Source: an uncultured Latescibacterota bacterium (GTDB lineage Bacteria > Latescibacterota > UBA2968). From it: 64,000 bases of DNA. This document shows, in pieces, positions 7,169 through 61,766 of the stretch. The number at the start of each line of letters is the position of its first letter. Position 1 is the first letter of the stretch. The notes under the pieces are model-generated. The model was given only the letters and a program-made list of their open reading frames with translations. It made no database searches and was not told where the DNA came from. The translations under genes were made by a program, and so were the position numbers. Where the stretch lies: positions 4,162,522-4,226,521 of the forward strand of contig OX638329.1 in NCBI GenBank assembly GCA_951812755.1. The letters are read 5' to 3'.

Positions 7169-7214
7169 AAGCACCTGCAATTTACAATAACCAACTTTAA
7201 ACAGGAGCATTCAC

Positions 7215-8120
7215 ATGTATCCGGACAAAGAAGCTGATCTTCTCAAGGCGTTTTCACCTGCTGAACCCATATTTACAGTAGATCCCGATTATATCAAGCG
7301 GGCGCGCTCGTTGAGCAAACAGGAAGATAACCCGTGTGGGCAAGCCCTTAAAGCCTTGCTTGTGAAAGCGGATGCCGCTTTGAAGCAGGAACCGCTGACC
7401 ATTGTGAACAAACCGATCTTGCCTTCCAGTGGTGACAAACACGATTACATGAGTGTTGGGCCTTACTGGTGGCCAGACCCCGATAAGCCTGACGGTTTGC
7501 CTTATATCCGACGAGATGGCGAGGTCAATCCCGAGGTCGAGAAAACGGATCGCCCTTTGTTGGCAAAATTCATTTCAACAGTGAAAACGCTGGGGTTTGC
7601 GTATGGTTTTACACATCGAGAAGACTACGCGGCTCATGCTGCATTGTTGTTGCGAACATGGTTTATGAATCCCAAAACCAGGAGTGGTGGCTTTACAATC
7701 TGGCCGGGGTCACATTACATGAGTCACCTGTATCACAGTACTGTTTACGGTCCCCTTGATCCCGACCTCGCAGAGCCATATAGCAAAGTCCGTGACAATG
7801 TGCTGAGAGAGATCACACCAGTGGAGTTTTCCGGCAAAGCAGGGGACGTTGTTTTCTGGCATCCTCGCCTTATTCACGGGGGAGGTGTTAATCGCTCTGC
7901 TGAACGCGACCGACCTGTCGTGCGTCTCGTCGTTCCTTGTGAGTATCAACGAGATGGTTTGACGCCATATTTTAACCTGTCGCATGGACCAGCACCAAAC
8001 CGTCAGTGGTGGGTCGATACCCGAAACTTTCGAGAGGATGTGCCAGCGACCGTTGACAACATGTGGGACGGATGGGCATTTGATACCGGTACAACAGACG
8101 CCGGGGACTGCTCAGCGTGA
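7215..8120 (+). pseudogene. Internally deleted alginate-lyase/PhyH copy
   Basis: A near-identical but shortened copy of the fusion gene at 17713. Residues 1-156 are the lyase N-terminus (with GPYWWPDPDKPDGLPY); then, without loss of frame, the sequence jumps to the end of the PhyH domain (GGFTIWPGSHYMSH onward). About 610 codons are missing, including the lyase NNH catalytic segment and the PhyH iron-binding HGD. The last codons differ from the full gene (GTTDAGDCSA instead of GTTVER). The upstream 30 or so bases, with the AACAGGAG ribosome binding site, are also copied. The frame stays open for 301 residues, but neither domain can be active. Only a few single-base differences separate the two copies, so the duplication is recent. 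Confidence 0.85.
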
Positions 8121-13647: not shown

Positions 13648-13799
13648 ATGTATTCTTCCTATAGTTTCGAGTCCAGTCCGCGCTACCGGATCGGTGTAGC
13701 GCAAGACAACGTGCGTGTAGAACTACTGCGTATAGTACATACAATAATGAACCTCGATCAAGACATTTCGTTATGCAGCACCTCATAGCAAGGCACAAA

Positions 13800-15737
13800 A
13801 TGTTTAAAAAAATTGGATTTGGCAGATTCACGGCGTGTAGTCTGCTTATATCCATCCAGTGTATAATCAGCACGCCGGTTTTCGCCGAGGTTTCGATGCT
13901 TGTAGAATCTGGCAACCGAATCATCCTCGAGAACAGTTCCGTATCGATGACGATCCAAAAGTCGTCTGGGCGGATTATCTCGCTGGTGCATCAAGGGGAC
14001 GCTCTCCTCGCGCCCAGGCAATTTGGGTATTTCACCATCCTGGCCAGTTATGTCGATGATTCGGATACAAATTATATGGCGGGCAAAGAGTCGAGTGCGA
14101 GGGCAAAATTTTTGCGCGACCAAACCCCCGAGTTTAACGTCCATGTCAATAACCCGGAAATGATCGACATTTCATTCGCCCCCAAACAACCTGAAGGTTT
14201 TCCGTTCAAGATGGAACTCCATTATGTCTTGAGAGCGGGTGATTCGGGGTTCTATTATTATGTTGTAGCCAGCAAACCCGGGGATACGGGCGACGCCGTA
14301 CTGACACAGCTTCGTTTTGGGATGCGCTTAAATGATTCGATGGTGAATATCAGGGTCAATGACAAGCTCTCTGGTGTGATTCCCGATAGCAAGGCCATAT
14401 CCAGCGCAAAGGGCATGGTGATGGATGCCACACATGCGCTTCAATCAGGAGAGGTGGATACAAAGTATAACTGGTCATCTCCAACTGAGGAAGCTCTTGT
14501 ACACGGTTTGCACAATGGAAAGCAGGGCGTGTGGATGGTCACGCCGAGCAATGAATACCTCTGCGGCGGTCCGACAAAGCAACACAATACCAGCCACGCG
14601 ACTGATCGGGGGCCGATCATCCTGAAGCTGCTCTATTCTCACCACTACGGCAGCAGAGGGGATTACGTCAGCGGTAAATGGGAGAAGATCTTCGGGCCGG
14701 TTTTTGTTTATATGAACAAAGGTGAAGATGCCCAACATTTGTGGGATGATGCAAAGCGCGAGGGTGAAAAACATCGAAAGCACTGGCCCTACAGTTGGCT
14801 GGAACATCCGGAGTACCCGACCAACAGGGCTGTGGTTACGGGAAAATTCAAAGATACAGGCCTGACACACCACAGCAAAGGATGGGTCGTTCTGGCGCAG
14901 CCCCAGGAACATCGAGGGCTGGACTGGCAGCAGCAAGGCGCAGAGAACTACATCTACCGTGCCAGGATGGCGGATGATGGTTCCTTTGCAATACCGGCTG
15001 TTCGAAAAGGGCGATATACGCTTTATGCGTTTGCACCTGACATGATTGGTGAATTTAGAAAAGATGACGTCACGATCAACGCAACCGGCGAAGTCAAACT
15101 CGGCAGTCTGCAGTGGTCACCCCGTTCTTTCGGCAAGTTGCTCTGGCGCGTCGGAAAACCAGACCGAACAGCTGCTGAATTTCGACACGGAGATGACCAT
15201 CGCCACTGGGGGCTATGGTTCAATTACCAGAAGGATTTTCCCGAGGATGTCGATTTCGCGATCGGCAAGAGCAAAGAGAGAAGTGACTGGAGCTATGCAC
15301 ATATAGCAGTTTGGGAAGAGAAAGGCGGATGGCAACCCCGCATACAGCCCGCTGATCGGACCGGAGAGGGCAACTGGCGACTGCCTACCTGGAAGATTCG
15401 GTTTCAATGCGATGATAAGCCAGTGCCCGGGCGTGCGACCCTCACAATCGCCCTGGCGTCGGTGAATCGCGATGGGGGAATCGCTATCGGCCTCAATGGC
15501 AAATCCCTGGATAAAATTACCGGTTTGGAGAACGACAGTGCGCTTCCCCGCAGTGGCATCTACGGGCGCTTCAGTGAGCACTTTATTACATTTGATGCGT
15601 CGCTGTTGCGTACAGGAGAGAATGTGTTGACGCTCGATCTCCTCCCGCGGAAACAACATCGCGGGCAACGACAAAACTACCCTCACTTTGGCGTTATGTA
15701 CGATTATTTGCAACTGGAAATCGATCACCAGGATTAA
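13800..15737 (+). CDS. Rhamnogalacturonan-lyase-like protein (PL4 type), secreted
   Basis: 645 residues from the ATG at 13800, beginning with a signal peptide (hydrophobic TACSLLISIQCIIS, cleavage after VFA). The order of modules fits polysaccharide lyase family 4: an N-terminal beta-sandwich catalytic domain (to about residue 340), a small fibronectin-like domain (VTGKFKDTG...GRYTLYAFAPDMIGEF), and a C-terminal CBM-like jelly roll (FGKLLWRVGKPDRTAAEF...NYPHFGVMYDYLQLEID). The motif WRVGKPDRTAAEF is typical of the PL4 CBM-like domain. Family members cut rhamnosyl-galacturonic linkages by beta-elimination. It heads the carbohydrate block and its stop overlaps the start of a repeated cassette leading into the next gene. 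Confidence 0.85.
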   Translation: MFKKIGFGRFTACSLLISIQCIISTPVFAEVSMLVESGNRIILENSSVSMTIQKSSGRIISLVHQGDALLAPRQFGYFTILASYVDDSDTNYMAGKESSARAKFLRDQTPEFNVHVNNPEMIDISFAPKQPEGFPFKMELHYVLRAGDSGFYYYVVASKPGDTGDAVLTQLRFGMRLNDSMVNIRVNDKLSGVIPDSKAISSAKGMVMDATHALQSGEVDTKYNWSSPTEEALVHGLHNGKQGVWMVTPSNEYLCGGPTKQHNTSHATDRGPIILKLLYSHHYGSRGDYVSGKWEKIFGPVFVYMNKGEDAQHLWDDAKREGEKHRKHWPYSWLEHPEYPTNRAVVTGKFKDTGLTHHSKGWVVLAQPQEHRGLDWQQQGAENYIYRARMADDGSFAIPAVRKGRYTLYAFAPDMIGEFRKDDVTINATGEVKLGSLQWSPRSFGKLLWRVGKPDRTAAEFRHGDDHRHWGLWFNYQKDFPEDVDFAIGKSKERSDWSYAHIAVWEEKGGWQPRIQPADRTGEGNWRLPTWKIRFQCDDKPVPGRATLTIALASVNRDGGIAIGLNGKSLDKITGLENDSALPRSGIYGRFSEHFITFDASLLRTGENVLTLDLLPRKQHRGQRQNYPHFGVMYDYLQLEIDHQD

Positions 15738-15838
15738 CAGAGTGTTTATAATGCGAATAATCAACCGCATAATGCTGATCGTTATACTTATAACTGGGCA
15801 GACACAAGGAACTGAATCAGTGAAGAAGAATTTAACCC
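15725..15838. repeat. Signal-peptide cassette, copy 1
   Basis: About 115 bases nearly identical to 22373-22488. The repeat covers the last codons and stop of the upstream gene (HQD-stop in both), the short spacer, the ATG and the signal peptide MRIINRIML(I/V)VILITG through ESV(K/E)KNLTP. After this point the two downstream proteins are unrelated. Confidence 0.85.
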
Positions 15839-17688
15839 CCGAAGCGGTCGTGGCTGGCTTTGAACAACGAGTGGATGCGATGTTTCGCGCTGAATCCGGC
15901 AAGCCGTTGGTGCGGGCAAAGAAACAGAAGCCACTCGATCCCGGGCGAGGAAATTATGTGCGGGCCTATTCCTATTCCATGGTGGGGTTTGCCGCACGCT
16001 GCCTCTATCTCAACGAGATGCTGGAAGAAGCCAATGCCGCACTTGCCGAAAATGCCCAACATTATCTCGACAACCCCCTGGACATCAATGACCGCGACAG
16101 TTTTCACTGGCATGCGGAGATCGTCATGCGGCTGATTGAGATGTACGGCACCAACGGTAGTAATCGCATCACCAAAAAGACCGAAGCCCTCGCTCTCAAG
16201 CCGATTTGGGAGTACGTCAGGAAGGTTTCCAGACTTGATAAGGCGGAATACGAGAAATCTAAAACCTGGCACATCTACCTATCAGAGAATCATCATGCCA
16301 TGTGTTTTACGGTCTGCTGGCAGTTTGCCAGAATCGCGAAGGATCGGCCTGAATACAAAAATCTCAAGTATGATGACGGCGCTACGGCGGCGGAACACTA
16401 TCGGGCCTGGAATGCGTATTTTGTGGTTTACTGCCATGAACGTGCGCGCAAAAGCCTGTGCATCGAAATGATGAGCGACGGCTATAACAGCACACTGATC
16501 AAGGGGTTCTACAATTTCTACGACTTTGGTGACCCGCAAGTGAGACGGTCGGCCGGGCTGTTGCTCGATCTTTATTTTGCCTATTGGGCGCAGGAACAGA
16601 TTGACGGCGTTCAAGGTGGTGGGCGGTCGCGCATCTATTTCTGGAAAGGGCTTAAGCAAAACCGGGAGCATGGCAATGCGCCGCTGGCCTGGTTCTACTT
16701 TGGCATCGGCAAGCAACCTGCTGTTTATGGTCATGACATGAACGCGGCCCTCAGCGACTACCGACCACCAGCCGTGGTGGCCGATATCGCAATCGACGTA
16801 GCAGGACGTGGACGCTACGAGGTGCGGCAGCGTCCCCAGGGTCTGGGAAAAACGGGTCGCCCTTTGAAGATTGCTGCTACGAAAGTGCCGACCAGGATGC
16901 GAACCGATGGCGGTGGTATTCTGCGCTACAGCTACTGCGATCCCGCCTTCATCATGGGAACGCCGATGACGGAAGCGAGGCCCCTGGAGGATTGGGCTGC
17001 GATCAGTGCGCAAAACCGCTGGCAAGGCGTGATCTTTGCCGGCGAACACGATGCGCGTATTGTTCCCATCGTTCGCCCCAAAGACAACCGGGTGGCCATG
17101 AACGCACAGTGGTCTGTGCAGAGCAAGGGAAGCTTGATTACCCAGAAGCTCAAGCACCATAAGGACGGTGCCGAGATGATCATCTGGATGTCGAAGGACG
17201 GGTTGAGCACGCCAGTGGAAGAGAATGGCGTGGTCTATGTGGAAGCCAAAGGCGCTTATGCGGCGATCCGCGTGGTCACAGGCGGTTTCAAGTGGATGGA
17301 TGGCGAGTTTGAAACGGATCGCTTTGTTCCCGAAAACGCGACCATGATTCCCAATGATGAATACGCACCGGTGATCATTGAAGTCATGGCCAAGAGCGAT
17401 GTCACGAGTTTCGACGCTTTCAAAAAAAAGGTGAAGGCCTGTGAAGTTCATATGGATGGGACGGTGCTGCGCTACAAAACCATCTATGGCGATCAGTTGA
17501 CCTTTGATACCAGCGCCAAAGCGGTACCCTCAATCAATGGCAAACCGATCGACTACGCTCCAAAGAAGGTCTTTGAAAGCCCCTTTCTCAATGCGGAGTG
17601 GAACAGCGGGGTTGTCACCATCAGCAAAGGTAAGCGAAAGAAGGTTCTGGATTTTACAAAACAGGCAGAAGACAACATTTTACGATAA
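15751..17688 (+). CDS. Secreted heparinase-like (alpha/alpha)-toroid protein
   Basis: 645 residues with a signal peptide (MRIINRIMLIVILITGQTQG). The first 350 residues are helical with the SENHHAMCFT motif (about residue 177) and YWAQEQIDGVQGGGRSR; the rest is beta-rich. This toroid-plus-sandwich layout recalls heparinase II/III and related lyases, but I cannot place it in a numbered family. It is a clear paralogue of the product at 19937: same SENH, same GGxxR region and same ending (VFESPFLNAEWNSGVVTISKG versus VFDSPYIQSNYDSGQIEICKG). Likely acts outside the cytoplasm on an acidic polysaccharide; that is inference from fold and neighbours. Confidence 0.7.
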   Translation: MRIINRIMLIVILITGQTQGTESVKKNLTPEAVVAGFEQRVDAMFRAESGKPLVRAKKQKPLDPGRGNYVRAYSYSMVGFAARCLYLNEMLEEANAALAENAQHYLDNPLDINDRDSFHWHAEIVMRLIEMYGTNGSNRITKKTEALALKPIWEYVRKVSRLDKAEYEKSKTWHIYLSENHHAMCFTVCWQFARIAKDRPEYKNLKYDDGATAAEHYRAWNAYFVVYCHERARKSLCIEMMSDGYNSTLIKGFYNFYDFGDPQVRRSAGLLLDLYFAYWAQEQIDGVQGGGRSRIYFWKGLKQNREHGNAPLAWFYFGIGKQPAVYGHDMNAALSDYRPPAVVADIAIDVAGRGRYEVRQRPQGLGKTGRPLKIAATKVPTRMRTDGGGILRYSYCDPAFIMGTPMTEARPLEDWAAISAQNRWQGVIFAGEHDARIVPIVRPKDNRVAMNAQWSVQSKGSLITQKLKHHKDGAEMIIWMSKDGLSTPVEENGVVYVEAKGAYAAIRVVTGGFKWMDGEFETDRFVPENATMIPNDEYAPVIIEVMAKSDVTSFDAFKKKVKACEVHMDGTVLRYKTIYGDQLTFDTSAKAVPSINGKPIDYAPKKVFESPFLNAEWNSGVVTISKGKRKKVLDFTKQAEDNILR

Positions 17689-17712
17689 CCAACTTGAAAC
17701 AGGAGTATTCAC

Positions 17713-19935
17713 ATGTATCCGGACAAAGAAGCTGATCTTCTCAAGGCGTTTTCACCTGCTGAACCCATATTTACAGTAGATCCCGATTATATCAAGCGGG
17801 CGCGCTCGTTGAGCAAACAGGAAGATAACCCGTGTGGGCAAGCCCTTAAAGCCTTGCTTGTGAAAGCGGATGCCGCTTTGAAGCAGGAACCGCTGACCAT
17901 TGTGAACAAACCGATCTTGCCTTCCAGTGGTGACAAACACGATTACATGAGTGTTGGGCCTTACTGGTGGCCAGACCCCGATAAGCCTGACGGTTTGCCT
18001 TATATCCGACGAGATGGCGAGGTCAATCCCGAGGTCGAGAAAACGGATCGCCCTTTGTTGGCAAAATTCATTTCAACGGTGAAAACGCTGGGGTTTGCGT
18101 ATGGTTTTACACATCGAGAAGACTACGCGGCTCATGCTGCATTGTTGTTGCGAACATGGTTTATGAATCCCAAAACCAGGATGAACCCAAACCTTTTATT
18201 TGGACAGGCCATACCCGGGATATGCGAAGGGCGAGGTATCGGGCTTATTGAGACGGCTGCATTTGCACGCGAGATGCTCCCCGCGGTCAGTTTCTTGCGC
18301 GACTCCAGGAACTGGTCCAAAAAAGATATGGAAGATTTGCAGGCCTGGTTTCATGCGTTTCTCGAATGGATGTTGAAGCATCCTTATGGAGTTGACGAAG
18401 CGCGTCATGGCAATAACCATTCGAGTGCTTATGATGTTCAGGTTGTGACATTCGCGCTTTTTGTAGGGCAATCAGATCTTGCGCGAATGATATTAAAAGG
18501 GGTGGGAGAAAGAAGGATTGCCGATCAGATTGAGCCAGATGGTCAACAGCCTCTGGAACTCGCACGCACAAAAACACTTGGATACGCGAGTATGAATTTG
18601 GAGCTTCTTTTAGAACTCGCTGAGATTGGCCGACAGTGGGGTATTGATCTCGCCAATTTTGAATCTACCGATGGGCGATCCATGCGACGCGCCTTTGATT
18701 GGCTTTATCCCTACTGGACGGGCGATCACGAGTGGACGCTTCCACAGATTCAACCCTTTTCCTGGGAGCCCGCATTTAGATGTATGAGACTCGCCGCTTA
18801 CCTTTATTTAGATATGGATATTGAGCCTGTGAAAGCCGAATTGGCAGGCATGAATCAGAAGGAGAAAGTGCAACAAATCTACAATCTTTTGGTGCCGCCA
18901 TTTGAAGGGAGCGGTTTACACGCGCTCAGAATTTCCGAAGATGTCGTCATCCGCGATCCCCATGTATTGGTCGATCCAGAATTTGCGAACGGAGACCCAA
19001 CCCTCTTGCCCGATCCAGAATTTGCGAACGGAGATCCAACCCTCAGTGAAGCCGAAGTCGCGTTTTTCAAAGAGAATGGTTTTCTTGTGAAACGCGGGTT
19101 TCTGCAAGAAAAGGAGACGTTTGACCGGATCGTGGATTACGTGTGGGAAAATGTGCCGCGTGAGATTGTCAAACGCGACGATGTACAAACGTGGTTCGAT
19201 GCGCCACACGGGCAATGGACAGAGGCGGATGCCGAAAAGGCAGGGCACTTTGCACGCGGCACATGGAAGATGCGCTCGCGTAAAATTGGTACAGAGCCTT
19301 TTTTTGTCGATAAGATCGCCAACCACCCACGTATGCGGCAGTTGGTTTCACTGTTTATCGGCGAGCCGGTTAAGCATTCAAAACGGGTGCGCGGAGTCTA
19401 TTGTATATTTCCAAAACCACCAAATTCAGAAAGTCGTTTGGCCCCCCATGGAGACCATACAGCGGCTCAATTATCTGCAATGGTTTTTGTAGATACGGTG
19501 CCTCCGCACTGTGGTGGTTTTACAATCTGGCCGGGGTCACATTACATGAGTCACTTGTATCACAGTACTGTTTACGGTCCCCTTGATCCCGACCTCGCAG
19601 AGCCATATAGCAAAGCCCGTGACAATGTGCTGAGAGAGATCACGCCAGTCGAGTTTTCCGGCAAAGCAGGGGACGTTGTTTTCTGGCATCCTCGCCTTAT
19701 TCACGGGGGAGGTGTTAATCGCTCTGCTGAACGCGACCGACCTGTCGTGCGTCTCGTCGTTCCTTGTGAGTATCAACGAGATGGTTTGACGCCATATTTT
19801 AACCTGTCGCATGGACCAGCACCAAACCGTCAGTGGTGGGTCGATACCCGAAACTTTCGAGAGGATGTGCCAGCGACCGTTGACAACATGTGGGACGGAT
19901 GGGCATTTGATACCGGTACAACAGTGGAGAGATAG
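17713..19935 (+). CDS. Alginate-lyase-like domain fused to PhyH dioxygenase domain
   Basis: 740 residues. Residues 1 to about 430 match the (alpha/alpha)-barrel alginate-lyase superfamily, with GPYWWPDPDKPDGLPYIRR (82-100) and the catalytic NNHSSAY (Asn234, Asn235, His236, Tyr240). Residues about 445-740 are a PhyH domain with the iron site APHGDHT (around His578), GGFTIWPGSHYM, and the distal HGGGVN...RPVVR. A 39-base tandem repeat encodes the linker. No signal peptide is visible, so a cytoplasmic exolytic lyase on oligosaccharides, with an attached oxygenase, is the simplest reading. The start has AACAGGAG nine bases upstream. It ends one base before the next gene. I know of no described protein with this fusion. 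Confidence 0.82.
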   Translation: MYPDKEADLLKAFSPAEPIFTVDPDYIKRARSLSKQEDNPCGQALKALLVKADAALKQEPLTIVNKPILPSSGDKHDYMSVGPYWWPDPDKPDGLPYIRRDGEVNPEVEKTDRPLLAKFISTVKTLGFAYGFTHREDYAAHAALLLRTWFMNPKTRMNPNLLFGQAIPGICEGRGIGLIETAAFAREMLPAVSFLRDSRNWSKKDMEDLQAWFHAFLEWMLKHPYGVDEARHGNNHSSAYDVQVVTFALFVGQSDLARMILKGVGERRIADQIEPDGQQPLELARTKTLGYASMNLELLLELAEIGRQWGIDLANFESTDGRSMRRAFDWLYPYWTGDHEWTLPQIQPFSWEPAFRCMRLAAYLYLDMDIEPVKAELAGMNQKEKVQQIYNLLVPPFEGSGLHALRISEDVVIRDPHVLVDPEFANGDPTLLPDPEFANGDPTLSEAEVAFFKENGFLVKRGFLQEKETFDRIVDYVWENVPREIVKRDDVQTWFDAPHGQWTEADAEKAGHFARGTWKMRSRKIGTEPFFVDKIANHPRMRQLVSLFIGEPVKHSKRVRGVYCIFPKPPNSESRLAPHGDHTAAQLSAMVFVDTVPPHCGGFTIWPGSHYMSHLYHSTVYGPLDPDLAEPYSKARDNVLREITPVEFSGKAGDVVFWHPRLIHGGGVNRSAERDRPVVRLVVPCEYQRDGLTPYFNLSHGPAPNRQWWVDTRNFREDVPATVDNMWDGWAFDTGTTVER
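18973..19050 (+). repeat. Tandem repeat of 39 bases in the lyase-PhyH linker
   Basis: Two units, each starting GATCCAGAATTTGCGAACGG, encode DPEFANGDPTLLP then DPEFANGDPTLSE. They sit exactly between the two domains, as would arise by slippage or by the joining of two genes. Confidence 0.9.
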
Positions 19936-19936
19936 T

Positions 19937-22036
19937 ATGCCCGAAGCAGATGCTAAAAACAGTTGGTTTCGATCCCTTCTGGAATTTGATAATTTACCCA
20001 TCGACAAGCGTATCACCGAATTAATGGCAGAAGAATTGGAAACGCGCCCACAACGCATTCAACAAGCCTTTGAAGCAGGTGCAAAATCAGATTTCTCGGG
20101 CAAAGACCGCCAGATGTTTGATCAGATGTGGCTCAACCAAAACCTAAACGAAGTCAACAGAGAATTGACGATAGATTTTCAAACCGAACTGGCAAATCTC
20201 GCAGAATGTGAGGAGAAAGGCACACAACCCGGGCAGAGTCTCTACAGCCTGTGGCGCAATCCAAGGCTGATTACATTCTACAATTGGTTTGGGTCTAAAA
20301 GTACACAGATGCCAAATCGACTCACGCCTGAAACAGAGCAAACTTTACTGGCTTTATTATGGGCGCGAACCAGGTACAAAAATGATATTTCTGTCGCAAA
20401 AAAGAGCACCTGGTGGATCGCGGGTAGTGAAAATCACGATCTGAATACAAAAGCCTGTAATCTTTTAAGTGCGCGTATTTTTGCCAATGAACCCGAGTAT
20501 GTTGACCGCATTTATCCCGACCTCGGTTATGGAGATGGCATCGGATACGGCGAGTCGGGCTATTGTGGGCAGGGCAGCAGTGATCGACACGGTGGTGGGC
20601 GCGCAAATTGGGCGGATGGAAAATCTTATAACGCAGCCGATCATTACGACGCCTGGTTGCCCTATCTCAATGACTATTTCACCGAGCGTGCAAAGCGGGG
20701 ATTCTTTCTTGAAAATGGTTCGCCAACCTATATGAAGTACACCATCAGTTATATTCTTATGCTCTACAATTTCTGTGGTGATGAGGGTCTCAAAAAGAAA
20801 ATTGGCATGTTTTTAGATCTGATGTGGGCCGATTGGGCACAGCTACAAATTGCAGGTTTACGAGGTGGTCCTAAAACGCGCCACCACAAGACTGCTGGTG
20901 GGTACGATTCTATGTCAGACCTTGCCGTTTTCTATCTGGGCGGTGAGGGCAAAACCTCATTCAACTATCCGCAACAACTCTTAAGCGACTATGCCTGGCC
21001 AAGAATCGTATGGGAATTGGCTCTGGATCGAAAAGGGCTCGGGTCATTTGCATATCTCTCTCGGGGCATTGGAGAAGAAGAGCCTACCAGCCCTCGTCCA
21101 TTGGGCACGGAGCGTACCGTGATGGGAGATACGCCATCGCGGTTTGTCAAATACACCTATGTAACGCCAGATTATATGCTGGGTACTCAGATGGATCACC
21201 CTTATGCGCTTTACAACCACCTATCAACCGCCGGACGCTGGCAAGGTCTGGTGACCAGAGATCCCAACACTCGTCTGGCAACCATTGCACTGGATACGCC
21301 AGAAGGAGAACGCGAAGATAAAAATATCTACGATATGGAATTGGTGTATCACAGCGTCCAGCATAAGCAAGTGCTGATCACCCAACAAAGAAGACGTTGG
21401 GCACAATCCAATCCAGACTGGTATCCAGCCAATGACAATCGGTATGATCGGGAATTCGGGTTATTCTTAGGCAACGGATGGGATCGCATTGATGAAACAG
21501 ATGGATGGATATTTGCAGAGAAGGAAAATGTCTATGTGGCAATACGGATTATTCTTTTGGAAGCAGAGGCCGATGCCAAAGCCTGGGCAAAAGGGACCGA
21601 CAGGTACCGGGGCAATGTGGTTCTTAGAAACGACAGTTATAGATTCAATAACGATCGGACGATTTTGCAACTGACCAACAGATACAGTCCCATTCTGATA
21701 GAAGCAGGTCGCAAGGCAGATCACCCGACGTTGGAGAATTTTAAGCGTATGATTTTGCAGGGCGAACTCACACTTTATAGAACCGTGGTAACAAGAGAAA
21801 CAGGCATTGTTATTGTTTACAAGAGTGCAGCACCCGAAATGGCAGAAATAGTATTTAATGCGGCCAATACAAGCGATGTGCCCACAATTGGTGGCGAGTA
21901 TGTCGATTATGAGCACCCAAAAGTTTTCGACAGCCCTTATATCCAATCCAATTACGATAGCGGCCAGATTGAAATTTGCAAAGGTGATTACAAACTCAAC
22001 CTCGACTTTAACAACAATTCAAGAGACGAATGCTAA
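19937..22036 (+). CDS. Heparinase-like paralogue without signal peptide
   Basis: 699 residues from the ATG one base after the stop of the lyase-PhyH gene; translational coupling is likely. Same fold as the product at 15751: helical N-terminal part with IAGSENHDLN (about residue 158), ADWAQLQIAGLRGGPKTRHH, then a beta-rich C-terminal part ending with VFDSPYIQSNYDSGQIEICKG. A Gly-rich insertion (GDGIGYGESGYCGQGSSDRHGGG, quoted in part) lies near residue 200. No signal peptide, in contrast to its paralogue, so the two may act on polymer outside and oligomer inside. Exact lyase or hydrolase activity is unknown. Confidence 0.7.
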   Translation: MPEADAKNSWFRSLLEFDNLPIDKRITELMAEELETRPQRIQQAFEAGAKSDFSGKDRQMFDQMWLNQNLNEVNRELTIDFQTELANLAECEEKGTQPGQSLYSLWRNPRLITFYNWFGSKSTQMPNRLTPETEQTLLALLWARTRYKNDISVAKKSTWWIAGSENHDLNTKACNLLSARIFANEPEYVDRIYPDLGYGDGIGYGESGYCGQGSSDRHGGGRANWADGKSYNAADHYDAWLPYLNDYFTERAKRGFFLENGSPTYMKYTISYILMLYNFCGDEGLKKKIGMFLDLMWADWAQLQIAGLRGGPKTRHHKTAGGYDSMSDLAVFYLGGEGKTSFNYPQQLLSDYAWPRIVWELALDRKGLGSFAYLSRGIGEEEPTSPRPLGTERTVMGDTPSRFVKYTYVTPDYMLGTQMDHPYALYNHLSTAGRWQGLVTRDPNTRLATIALDTPEGEREDKNIYDMELVYHSVQHKQVLITQQRRRWAQSNPDWYPANDNRYDREFGLFLGNGWDRIDETDGWIFAEKENVYVAIRIILLEAEADAKAWAKGTDRYRGNVVLRNDSYRFNNDRTILQLTNRYSPILIEAGRKADHPTLENFKRMILQGELTLYRTVVTRETGIVIVYKSAAPEMAEIVFNAANTSDVPTIGGEYVDYEHPKVFDSPYIQSNYDSGQIEICKGDYKLNLDFNNNSRDEC

Positions 22037-22070
22037 AACCCTTCAACCTCGAAGTCAGGAGCAAAATATC

Positions 22071-22385
22071 ATGCAACGCAATGCTTTCAAGATGCAACTA
22101 AAGCCAGGTTACGAGGCCGAGTACAAAAAGCGCCACGACGAAATTTGGCCGGAACTGGCTGAAGAATTGGGCAAAGCTGGCGTCTCGGACTATTCAATTT
22201 TTCTCGATGAGGAGACGCTGACACTCTTTGCCATGCAGAAGCTGGCCGACGACAATACTGCAGATGAGTTGCCGGAGACCGCAATCGTCAAGAAGTGGTG
22301 GGCCTACATGGCCGATATCATGGATACCAACCCCGACAACTCGCCGGTCTGCATACCGCTGCAGGAAGTTTTTCACCAGGATTAA
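22071..22385 (+). CDS. rhaM: L-rhamnose mutarotase
   Basis: 104 residues, the usual length. The enzyme interconverts alpha- and beta-L-rhamnopyranose so that isomerase can use it. Conserved residues are visible: Tyr18 and His22 in AEYKKRHDEIWPEL, Trp76-Trp77 in KKWWAYM, and the ending NPDNSPVCIPLQEVFHQD. AGGAG lies ten bases before the ATG. It sits between a heparinase-like gene and a jelly-roll protein, showing that the block handles rhamnose-containing glycans. No other rhamnose pathway gene is in the window. Its last codons and stop belong to a duplicated cassette, and a tail fragment of it remains at 8133. Confidence 0.92.
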   Translation: MQRNAFKMQLKPGYEAEYKKRHDEIWPELAEELGKAGVSDYSIFLDEETLTLFAMQKLADDNTADELPETAIVKKWWAYMADIMDTNPDNSPVCIPLQEVFHQD

Positions 22386-24087: not shown

Positions 24088-26085
24088 ATGAGCACGACGA
24101 ACAAACCCAATTTCCTGTGGATCAGTAACCACGACTCGAGTGCCTGGAACTACGGTTGCTACGGAGATCAATACGCGCATACCCCAAATATTGATCGCCT
24201 ATCGGCAGAAGGTGTGCGCTACACCAATGCGTTCACCGCTGGCCCAATCTGCTCACCGTCGCGCACAGGCATCTATACCGGCATGCATCCGACGACACTG
24301 GGCACGCATCATCACCGCAGCGCGATCATCCGCCCCGCAGGGGTTGAGCTATTAAACACAATGCTGACAAACGCCGGTTATGCCTGCACACAGCCAGACG
24401 GCGACATCAATCTTTACGTCTCCAAAGAGGAGCGTGAACAGTATTACAACTCTGAAGATTTCTGGGAGAATCGCCCTGAAGACAAGCCGTTCTTCATGTA
24501 CTACAGACTGGGCAATTCCCACGCCAGTGTATTCAAACTGACGCCCGAGGATGCGCGGAAAGCGCGTTCTCCGCTCTTGAGCGACGACGAGTTGCACGAC
24601 CCGAATGATGTGCCGGTTCCGAGCTTTGTTCCCGACACCCCCCTATTCAGGGAAAGGATGGCGCTCTTCTACGACGCCCTTACCAACGTCGATAAGCAGG
24701 TCGGAGAGATCCTCGATGAGCTTGAAGCGCAGGGGCACAGTGAAGACACCATTGTGGTCTATTGGGGAGACCACGGCGCAGGTTATCCCCGGGGCAAGAT
24801 CCACGCCTACGACGACGGACTGAGTATCCCGCTGATCATGCGATTCCCGGAGAAATACCGACACCTATCCCCGGCAGAACCCGGCACCGCGGTTGATGAA
24901 CTCGTCTTGCACATGGACCTGTGTGCGACGACCCTGCAACTGGCAGGCGTCCCTATCGCCGAACACATCCAGAGTCGAAACCTGTGCGGTCCCAACAGAG
25001 ATGAACCGAGGGATTTTGTCTGCAGTGCCAGGGATCGGCTGGACAACAACCCGGAAGTGATCCGTACGATCCGCACAAAAAAATACCGTTACATGCGTAA
25101 CCTCCTCCCCCACCAGCCTTATGCTTCGTTTTATCCGGACGGCGGGTTCTTTGCGAAGGTTCCAGAAGAGGGAACGCCGGAGCGCGCCTTCTGGGAGACC
25201 TCTTGCCTACCGGGCAAACAGAAGATCCACGACCCCGACGGCGTGTTTCTGATGCTCGGCCCGCCGGTCATGATCAAACAGGACGGGCTACCTGAGCATT
25301 ACCGGCAGTTCCAGATCTGGCAGGATCACAAACCCGCCGAAGAGTTATACGATATTGAAAAAGACCCTGAAGAGACACATAACCTGGCGGATGATCCCGC
25401 TTTCAGCGATATCATGGATGAACTGCGGCAGAAGCTGTTCAGATGGATGATCGAGACCCGTGATCTGGGGCTGATCGATGAACCGGAGATTGCCGCGCGA
25501 GCCGAGCAGTACAACGGAATCAGCCACGCAGTCGGTGTACACTGTGATAATTACGAGCGGATCCTGGAAACAGCGGACCTGGCGCGTCTGGGTGAGGACG
25601 CAAAGGAAGAACTCGCAAAACGACTTGGTGATCCCGACAGCGCCGTGCGTTTCTGGGCAGTTACCGGCCTTTGCTCGCTTGGTGTGGAACGCGCGATGAT
25701 CGAGCGCCTATCCCCTCTCCTTGACGATCCCTCAATCAGCGTCAGCCTGGCCGCCGGAGACTATCTGGTGCGGGCAGGCGAAGGTGCCCTGGCCCTGCCT
25801 GCTTTTGAGCGGGCGCTGGCGAGCGATATCCTCTGGGCGCGGCTACGGGCAGGCGCTTATCTGTCATACCGCAGCCGCGAAGAACTACAGCCCCTGAAGG
25901 CACTTATTCTCGCCCTGGAGCAGGCCATAAACAAACAGGAGATGTGCGGGCCAGGACACAATGCGCAGGTCGAAAAGAACAATTACACAGGCAGGCTCGA
26001 TGGGCAGCGGGATGGCATCGTCAGGGTGTGGGTATTGGAGCGAGTGATGAAGAGGATTGAACTGTCCTCTGGGTTTGAGGGATAG
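24088..26085 (+). CDS. Sulfatase with C-terminal HEAT-like repeat extension
   Basis: 665 residues, about 180 longer than the other sulfatases here. The catalytic domain has SNHDSSAWNYGCYGD (metal Asp16), FGly Cys55 in GPICSPSRTG, and WGDHGAGYPRGK for the second metal site. After about residue 490 the chain becomes helical repeats (LAKRLGDPDSAVRFWAVTGL, IERLSPLLDDPSISVSLAAG, ASDILWARLRAGAYLSYRS), typical of HEAT-like repeats used for protein contacts. No signal peptide. It ends VRVWVLERVMKRIEL, a tail also found on the truncated sulfatase at 29895. It starts a run of sulfatase genes, two bases ahead of the next one. Confidence 0.9.
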   Translation: MSTTNKPNFLWISNHDSSAWNYGCYGDQYAHTPNIDRLSAEGVRYTNAFTAGPICSPSRTGIYTGMHPTTLGTHHHRSAIIRPAGVELLNTMLTNAGYACTQPDGDINLYVSKEEREQYYNSEDFWENRPEDKPFFMYYRLGNSHASVFKLTPEDARKARSPLLSDDELHDPNDVPVPSFVPDTPLFRERMALFYDALTNVDKQVGEILDELEAQGHSEDTIVVYWGDHGAGYPRGKIHAYDDGLSIPLIMRFPEKYRHLSPAEPGTAVDELVLHMDLCATTLQLAGVPIAEHIQSRNLCGPNRDEPRDFVCSARDRLDNNPEVIRTIRTKKYRYMRNLLPHQPYASFYPDGGFFAKVPEEGTPERAFWETSCLPGKQKIHDPDGVFLMLGPPVMIKQDGLPEHYRQFQIWQDHKPAEELYDIEKDPEETHNLADDPAFSDIMDELRQKLFRWMIETRDLGLIDEPEIAARAEQYNGISHAVGVHCDNYERILETADLARLGEDAKEELAKRLGDPDSAVRFWAVTGLCSLGVERAMIERLSPLLDDPSISVSLAAGDYLVRAGEGALALPAFERALASDILWARLRAGAYLSYRSREELQPLKALILALEQAINKQEMCGPGHNAQVEKNNYTGRLDGQRDGIVRVWVLERVMKRIELSSGFEG

Positions 26086-29894: not shown

Positions 29895-30368
29895 ATGAGT
29901 AATCAAGACAGACCCAATTTCCTGTGGATCAGCAATCACGACTCGAGTGCGTGGAACTACGGTTGTTACGGAGATCAATATGCGGATACTCCCAATATTG
30001 ACCGATTGGCGGCAGAAGGGGTGCGCTATACCAACGCGTTTACTGCAGGCCCAATCTGCTCACCATCGCGCACGGGTATTTATACCGGTATGCATCCGAC
30101 CACGCTGGGCACGCATCATCACCGTAGTGCAGTCATCCGCCCTGAAGGGTTTGAGCTGTTAAACACAATGCTGGCAAACGCTGGTTATGCCTGCACGGAG
30201 CCTGACGGAGATATCAATCTTTATGTCTCCAAAGATGAGCGTGAACAGTATTACAACGCTAAAGATTTTTGGGAGAATCGCCCTGAAGATAAGCCGTTTT
30301 TCATGATCTATGTCAGGGTGTGGGTATTGGAGCGAGTGATGAAGAGAATCGAATTGAGTATCAAATAA
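29895..30368 (+). pseudogene. Internally deleted sulfatase (N- and C-terminus only)
   Basis: 157 residues. The first 138 follow the sulfatase at 24088 closely (SNHDSSAWNYGCYGD, FGly Cys55 in ICSPSRTG, NLYVSKDEREQYYN), with many synonymous differences. Then the frame jumps to the last residues of the same protein (VRVWVLERVMKRIEL) and stops. About 500 codons are gone, including the DHG metal site, so it cannot be an active sulfatase. The frame is kept and the ribosome binding site AAAGGA is good, so a short product could be made. It repeats the N-plus-C pattern of the lyase-PhyH copy at 7215. Confidence 0.88.
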
Positions 30369-56327: not shown

Positions 56328-56345
56328 AGTTGACCTCCTCATGGA

Positions 56346-56541
56346 ATACAATAGGGAGAGACCTCATGGCATACGTCATACTTATCGCAGAAGGGGATGC
56401 ATCCGACGCGCTTTAATCGACCTGGATCAAGGTCGCGGGATGTCTGGGGATCGAGACATGCGGCGAGCAACTACTGATGGTGTTTATCCATCCGAACATA
56501 AACCGGTTCAGGTCGAATTTCAGATCCTTGACCATTAACTA
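56346..56541 (+). repeat. 196-base repeat, copy 1 (phosphatase/nuclease-like gene end)
   Basis: Matches 61571-61766 with about seven differences. The last frame, DGVYPSEHKPVQVEFQILDH then stop, looks like the end of an endonuclease/exonuclease/phosphatase-family protein (SDHxPV motif). The MAYVILIAEGDASDAL frame near its start stops early. So the repeat is a gene remnant that was copied. Confidence 0.8.
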
Positions 56542-61531: not shown

Positions 61532-61570
61532 CGCTTCACTATCCTGAGCTCAGAAATTCCGCATTTTGGG

Positions 61571-61766
61571 ATACAATAGGGAGAGACCTCATGGCATACG
61601 TCATACTTATCGGAGAAGGGGATGCATCCGACGCGCTTTAATCAACCTGGATCAAGGTCGCGGGATGTCTGGGGATCGAGACATGCGGCGAGCAACTACT
61701 GACGGTGTTTATCCATCCGACCATAAACCGATTCAGGTCGAATTTCAGATCCTTGACCATTAACTA
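61571..61766 (+). repeat. 196-base repeat, copy 2
   Basis: Second copy of 56346-56541, ending DGVYPSDHKPIQVEFQILDH then stop; here the SDH of the phosphatase/nuclease motif is intact where copy 1 has SEH. It joins the tail of the DUF4432 gene directly. Confidence 0.8.

Follow-up and report, generated by a model that had tools for sequence, protein, structure and literature searches.

A conserved fusion of a PL38-type lyase domain and a PhyH-family oxygenase domain in uncultured Latescibacterota

Results

The fusion gene and its neighbors

The window analyzed here (64,000 nucleotides, to which all coordinates refer unless a locus or genome is named) belongs to the 6.5 Mb genome of an uncultured Latescibacterota bacterium (G000) and contains, at 17713..19935 on the forward strand, a single open reading frame free of internal stops which encodes 740 residues plus the stop codon and has orthologous single frames in relatives. 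An earlier note made from the sequence alone had proposed that this frame joins an alginate-lyase-like domain and a PhyH dioxygenase in one chain and that both halves keep their catalytic residues, and both proposals hold. Pfam places Alginate_lyase at residues 63-341 (E 3e-84, profile positions 2-275 of 275) and PhyH at residues 452-673 (E 1.8e-16, profile positions 1-209 of 213), both nearly full length, and NNHSSAY is found at residues 234-240, HGD at residues 579-581 and the distal His at residue 664.

The surrounding locus is rich in sulfatases and also holds PL4-like, GH10, pectate-lyase-like, rhaM, aldo/keto reductase and several PhyH genes. Along the forward strand, a PL4-type rhamnogalacturonan-lyase-like gene assigned by Pfam (13773..15737) is followed by a gene with no Pfam match (15748..17688) that ends 24 bases before the fusion, by the fusion itself, by a second gene with no Pfam match (19937..22036) that starts 1 base past the stop codon of the fusion, and by the L-rhamnose mutarotase gene rhaM (22068..22385). 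The PL4-type gene and the downstream gene also adjoin the fusion in locus L092, where a homologue of the upstream gene follows the rhaM position. No clear solved relative was found for the products of 15748-17688 and 19937-22036, and no gene specific for sugar methylation was identified near the fusion. L092 further contains, at 14883-17546, an 888-residue frame; the window gene at 15751 (645 residues) matches its first 636 residues and, given this longer counterpart, may be truncated.

The lyase half

The N-terminal half (residues 1-398; 17713..18906, forward strand) is a PL38-type lyase domain according to Pfam, PDB sequence matches and fold. Its sequence matches PDB entry 3nfv (6e-89) and BoPL38 (8bdq; 1e-62 over query residues 52-353), and this half of the AlphaFold model, with pLDDT mostly above 90, matches 3nnb and 8bdq with TMt of 0.82-0.88. 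Residues Y84, D101, Q165, N235, H236 and Y291 align with Y91, D108, Q173, N242, H243 and Y298 of BoPL38, that is, with positions that were mutated in solved structures or named as catalytic (PMC13169297). In that enzyme, H243 is the reported base for anti elimination and Y298 that for syn elimination (PMC13169297); their counterparts lie in N234-N235-H236 (18412..18420) and at Y291 (18583..18585). Among 41 aligned lyases, Y84, Q165, N235, H236 and Y291 are nearly invariant, D101 having been left out of this tally. Similarity over the catalytic domain, fold and the catalytic Asn, His and Tyr all place the domain in PL38, and the named catalytic residues are common to it and BoPL38 (8bdq/9fhu), to which 3nnb/3nfv from Bacteroides ovatus are related. 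Membership in PL5 (A1-III, AlgL, PanPL) was considered and rejected, the matches being far weaker (E 0.003 by sequence; TMt ∼0.59 by fold).

BoPL38 and 3nnb are single-domain chains, whereas the fused form adds the PhyH domain and is devoid of a signal peptide. The signal peptide is absent from every fused protein, which fits a 2-oxoglutarate-dependent enzyme located in the cytoplasm; most PL38 relatives of other phyla exhibit a hydrophobic N-terminus. Next to the PL38 genes of those other phyla, no PhyH gene was found within the flanks examined (up to 8 kb).

The oxygenase half

The C-terminal half (residues ∼406-740; 18928..19932, forward strand) is a PhyH-type Fe/2-oxoglutarate oxygenase domain, as indicated by Pfam, model and PDB folds. 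It scores 61.5 bits against PF05721, for which the curated cut-off is 22, and PhyH alignments reveal conservation of the HxD iron-binding motif (H579 and D581; 19447..19455), of the distal iron-binding His (H664; 19702..19704) and of R680 (19750..19752), the probable 2-oxoglutarate-binding Arg. R680 is invariant in 18 of the 18 PhyH rows of one alignment (A1) and conserved to at least 90% in another (A2). Modeled alone, the domain attains a pLDDT of 86 and matches the folds of KanJ, EctD, SnoK/SnoN and human PHYH with modest TM-scores; KanJ, which has an aminosugar antibiotic as substrate, is among the nearest PDB folds at an equally modest TM of ∼0.5. When compared with PHYH, EctD and KanJ of PF05721, the fused domain shares the HxD...H plus Arg arrangement and the PhyH-like fold, but is joined to a lyase and has 5 residues inserted between the Arg and a conserved NxS.

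The joint and the 39-base repeat

Standalone lyases and PDB entry 3nfv stop at about query residue 392-395 and standalone PhyH relatives start at about residue 406 (L020 aligns from 406). Hence, the end of the lyase abuts the start of PhyH with few residues added, and the ends and starts of these relatives place the joint at residues ∼399-405 (18907..18927, forward strand). The earlier note had instead taken a 39-base repeat to be what joins the domains. The repeat is real and lies between the two Pfam matches: adjacent copies at 18967-19005 and 19006-19044, 92% identical, constitute an in-frame duplication of 13 residues (18967..19044, forward strand). With the joint at ∼398-406, however, it falls within the PhyH arm: the duplicated motif, DPxFTNGxPTLS, is part of the N-terminal arm of PhyH, and standalone PhyH relatives have a similar motif natively at this place. 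Sequence comparison reveals two copies only in the genus of the window, and a single copy in the fused genes of genomes G025, G027 and G028. Since other genera are fused with one copy, the repeat was rejected as the cause of the fusion; either the fusion is the older of the two, or they came about independently of each other.

A decayed copy

A second copy of the fusion, unmentioned by the earlier note, is located at 7178..8097 on the forward strand. It is internally deleted but in frame, with segments corresponding to 17676-18181 and 19511-19924 joined at 99% identity; H236, Y291 and the HxD motif are missing, and both active sites are lost. The copy precedes a BNR gene, and in genome G030 (L095) the same position is held by an intact fusion. 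Across the window (1-64000) there are also scattered short, near-identical duplicated segments of 37-500 bases (87-100%), e.g., 24101-24498 with 29908-30305 and 56342-56541 with 61567-61766, which looks like frequent local recombination.

Distribution and evolution of the fusion

The full-length fusion recurs at 95-98% identity in eight further genomes of the same genus and at ∼68-80% identity in three more genera of its Latescibacterota family; two genomes of the same genus lack it. The earlier note had held that relatives always having two separate genes would speak against a fusion, and a single frame in four genera is what we find instead. A split of the gene by a stop codon in sister genera was likewise considered and discarded, given that the stop lies at the gene's end in L018 and L019 and that the frame of L017 is open to the end.

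The fused lyases group as a single clade in a tree (support 98/99). So do the complete fused PhyH domains (100/99), whose clade lies inside the standalone PhyH of the family. The latter clade leaves out L029, a second but partial fusion in G025, of which the lyase half groups within the fused-lyase clade. As far as such trees can tell, the clade structure of both halves is consistent with one fusion origin. The lyase half and the PhyH half are both under purifying selection, with dN/dS of 0.08-0.26 in comparisons inside the genus. The fusion is genuine and conserved and combines two apparently active enzymes. In one genus, represented by G028, the fused lyase has Y84 and D101 deleted and carries N235H, R285H and Y291S, while the PhyH catalytic residues are intact. 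Close PhyH relatives occur as standalone genes, and standalone paralogues persist in three genera.

In a more distant family (f4), the lyase is unfused and at least two PhyH genes are located nearby in G045, G059 and G039; in G059 an amidase gene directly follows the lyase and separates it from PhyH. The f4 lyase neighborhood also comprises amidase and gamma-glutamyltranspeptidase genes and is in this respect unlike a plain polysaccharide locus. In G058 (L021:262-2820), the lyase shares an 853-residue frame with an amidase-like C-terminal part, possibly another fusion with a neighbor; this part reads as an amidase from its GGSSSGSAAAVAAG motif.

PhyH and sulfatase genes across the genome

The genome contains 156 PhyH and 152 sulfatase matches. 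Taking the best 150 of the 156 and the best 150 of the 152, respectively, 44 of 150 PhyH genes have a sulfatase no more than 3 kb away, where 17 are expected under rotation, and none of 2000 rotations reached as high a value; at 5 and 10 kb, one rotation in 2000 did.

Discussion

Both domain families are known, but their fusion appears to be an undescribed new architecture: in agreement with the earlier note, alginate lyase and phytanoyl-CoA dioxygenase were not found together in the literature searched. The reading we prefer, to which we assign a probability of roughly 0.4, is that of a cytoplasmic two-step enzyme which would cut uronate oligosaccharides and strip off a decoration by oxidation, O-methyl being the most likely one. 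Such an enzyme would participate in the cytoplasmic breakdown of a decorated, sulfated, uronate-containing glycan. Considering its fold and conserved catalytic residues, the PL38-type domain would carry out beta-elimination at a glycosidic bond to uronate, and the PhyH domain would use Fe(II), O2 and 2-oxoglutarate to oxidize a carbon of that sugar or of a neighboring one, the most likely target being an O-methyl group that would then be lost as formaldehyde. On this reading, the lyase and PhyH genes would first have belonged to the same pathway and then been fused once, in an ancestor of the Latescibacterota family. We count in favor of the two-step reading the full-length domains with their catalytic residues, the clade structure, the purifying selection, the absent signal peptide, the fold match to KanJ, the proximity of unfused lyase and separate PhyH genes in f4 and the clustering of PhyH with sulfatases. 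Against it we count the amidase and gamma-glutamyltranspeptidase neighbors in f4, the absence of an identified sugar-methylation gene nearby, the modest similarity to KanJ, the dead lyase of G028 and the wide range of substrates hydroxylated by PhyH enzymes. PhyH-family enzymes, including one from Poribacteria, O-demethylate 2'-O-methyl nucleosides (PMC12709175). These demethylases, FJS/PHYHD1, share Pfam family and cofactor chemistry with the fused PhyH domain, but act on free nucleosides (PMC12709175). The literature searched yielded no account of 2-oxoglutarate-dependent enzymes that demethylate methylated sugars of polysaccharides.

Nearly as likely as a two-step, decoration-removing enzyme is a loose fusion devoid of coupling, in which neighboring genes for two independent cytoplasmic steps of one catabolic locus lost the stop codon between them; each domain would then act by itself, on a different compound, and the link would have little catalytic meaning. 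The separate but close lyase and PhyH genes of f4 are compatible with such an event, as are the standalone PhyH paralogues kept in three genera and the PhyH domain that G028 retains with a dead lyase. The amidase-like fusion in G058 and the amidase neighbor in G059 moreover suggest that this lyase tends to fuse with its neighbors. On the other hand, the fused form has been retained down to ∼70% identity across four genera, and both active sites are intact except in one genus, which argues against a union of little consequence. For the two-step enzyme, too, the benefit of the fusion is probably co-expression and proximity and not obligate substrate channeling, because one lineage keeps an intact oxygenase site beside a dead lyase.

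A rather unlikely alternative regarding the oxygenase is that it removes a sulfate ester oxidatively, or hydroxylates a sugar carbon, instead of demethylating. The strong clustering of PhyH with sulfatases would be in line with this, as would the standalone PhyH genes L020 and L031, which reside among sulfatase homologues (loci L094 and L097), and a 2-oxoglutarate-dependent alkylsulfatase, AtsK, is known. The sequence similarity to AtsK is weak, however, the match being short (3.6e-05, 51 profile positions), and an oxidative sulfatase would be redundant since hydrolytic sulfatases are already plentiful.

Still less probable is the coupling favored in the earlier note, according to which the oxygenase oxidizes the unsaturated uronate end that its partner lyase in the chain produces. 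Two intact, physically fused active sites may invite this idea, but against it stand the intact PhyH domain beside the catalytically dead lyase of G028, from which it follows that a working lyase in the same chain is no strict requirement for the oxygenase, and the close PhyH relatives with no fused lyase. The other option considered there, oxidation of a neighboring modified residue, fares better: it is possible and comes near the two-step reading preferred here, with a substrate that we infer. Finally, a false fusion due to annotation, assembly or a frameshift is hardly credible, for although most genomes are metagenome assemblies and recombination at the locus is evident from the decayed copy, the same single frame recurs in independent assemblies, nine of them from the genus itself and others from three further genera.

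The fusion also provides a handle on the role of the greatly expanded PhyH families in uncultured bacteria. Poribacteria have very many diverse PhyH genes, some of which have been linked to phosphonate use (PMC3909097), and the 156 matches in the present genome represent a likewise high number. Unlike the phosphonate link drawn for Poribacteria (PMC3909097), however, the association here is with sulfatases, near which the PhyH genes cluster, and with a lyase, to which one of them is fused. The conserved lyase fusion and the sulfatase clustering link at least part of the PhyH expansion to polysaccharide breakdown. It is possible, if on balance doubtful, that we are dealing with a uronate lyase coupled to an Fe/2-oxoglutarate-dependent glycan O-demethylase, and thus with a first sign that the expanded PhyH families serve the oxidative tailoring of decorated, sulfated polysaccharides. 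An oxygen-dependent removal of decorations would add a step to the use of modified polysaccharides by marine bacteria. The genome holds, in addition, two pairs of PhyH matches in open frames of 592-595 residues (G000:C1:822397-823926 and 6180301-6181806), suggesting proteins with two PhyH domains.
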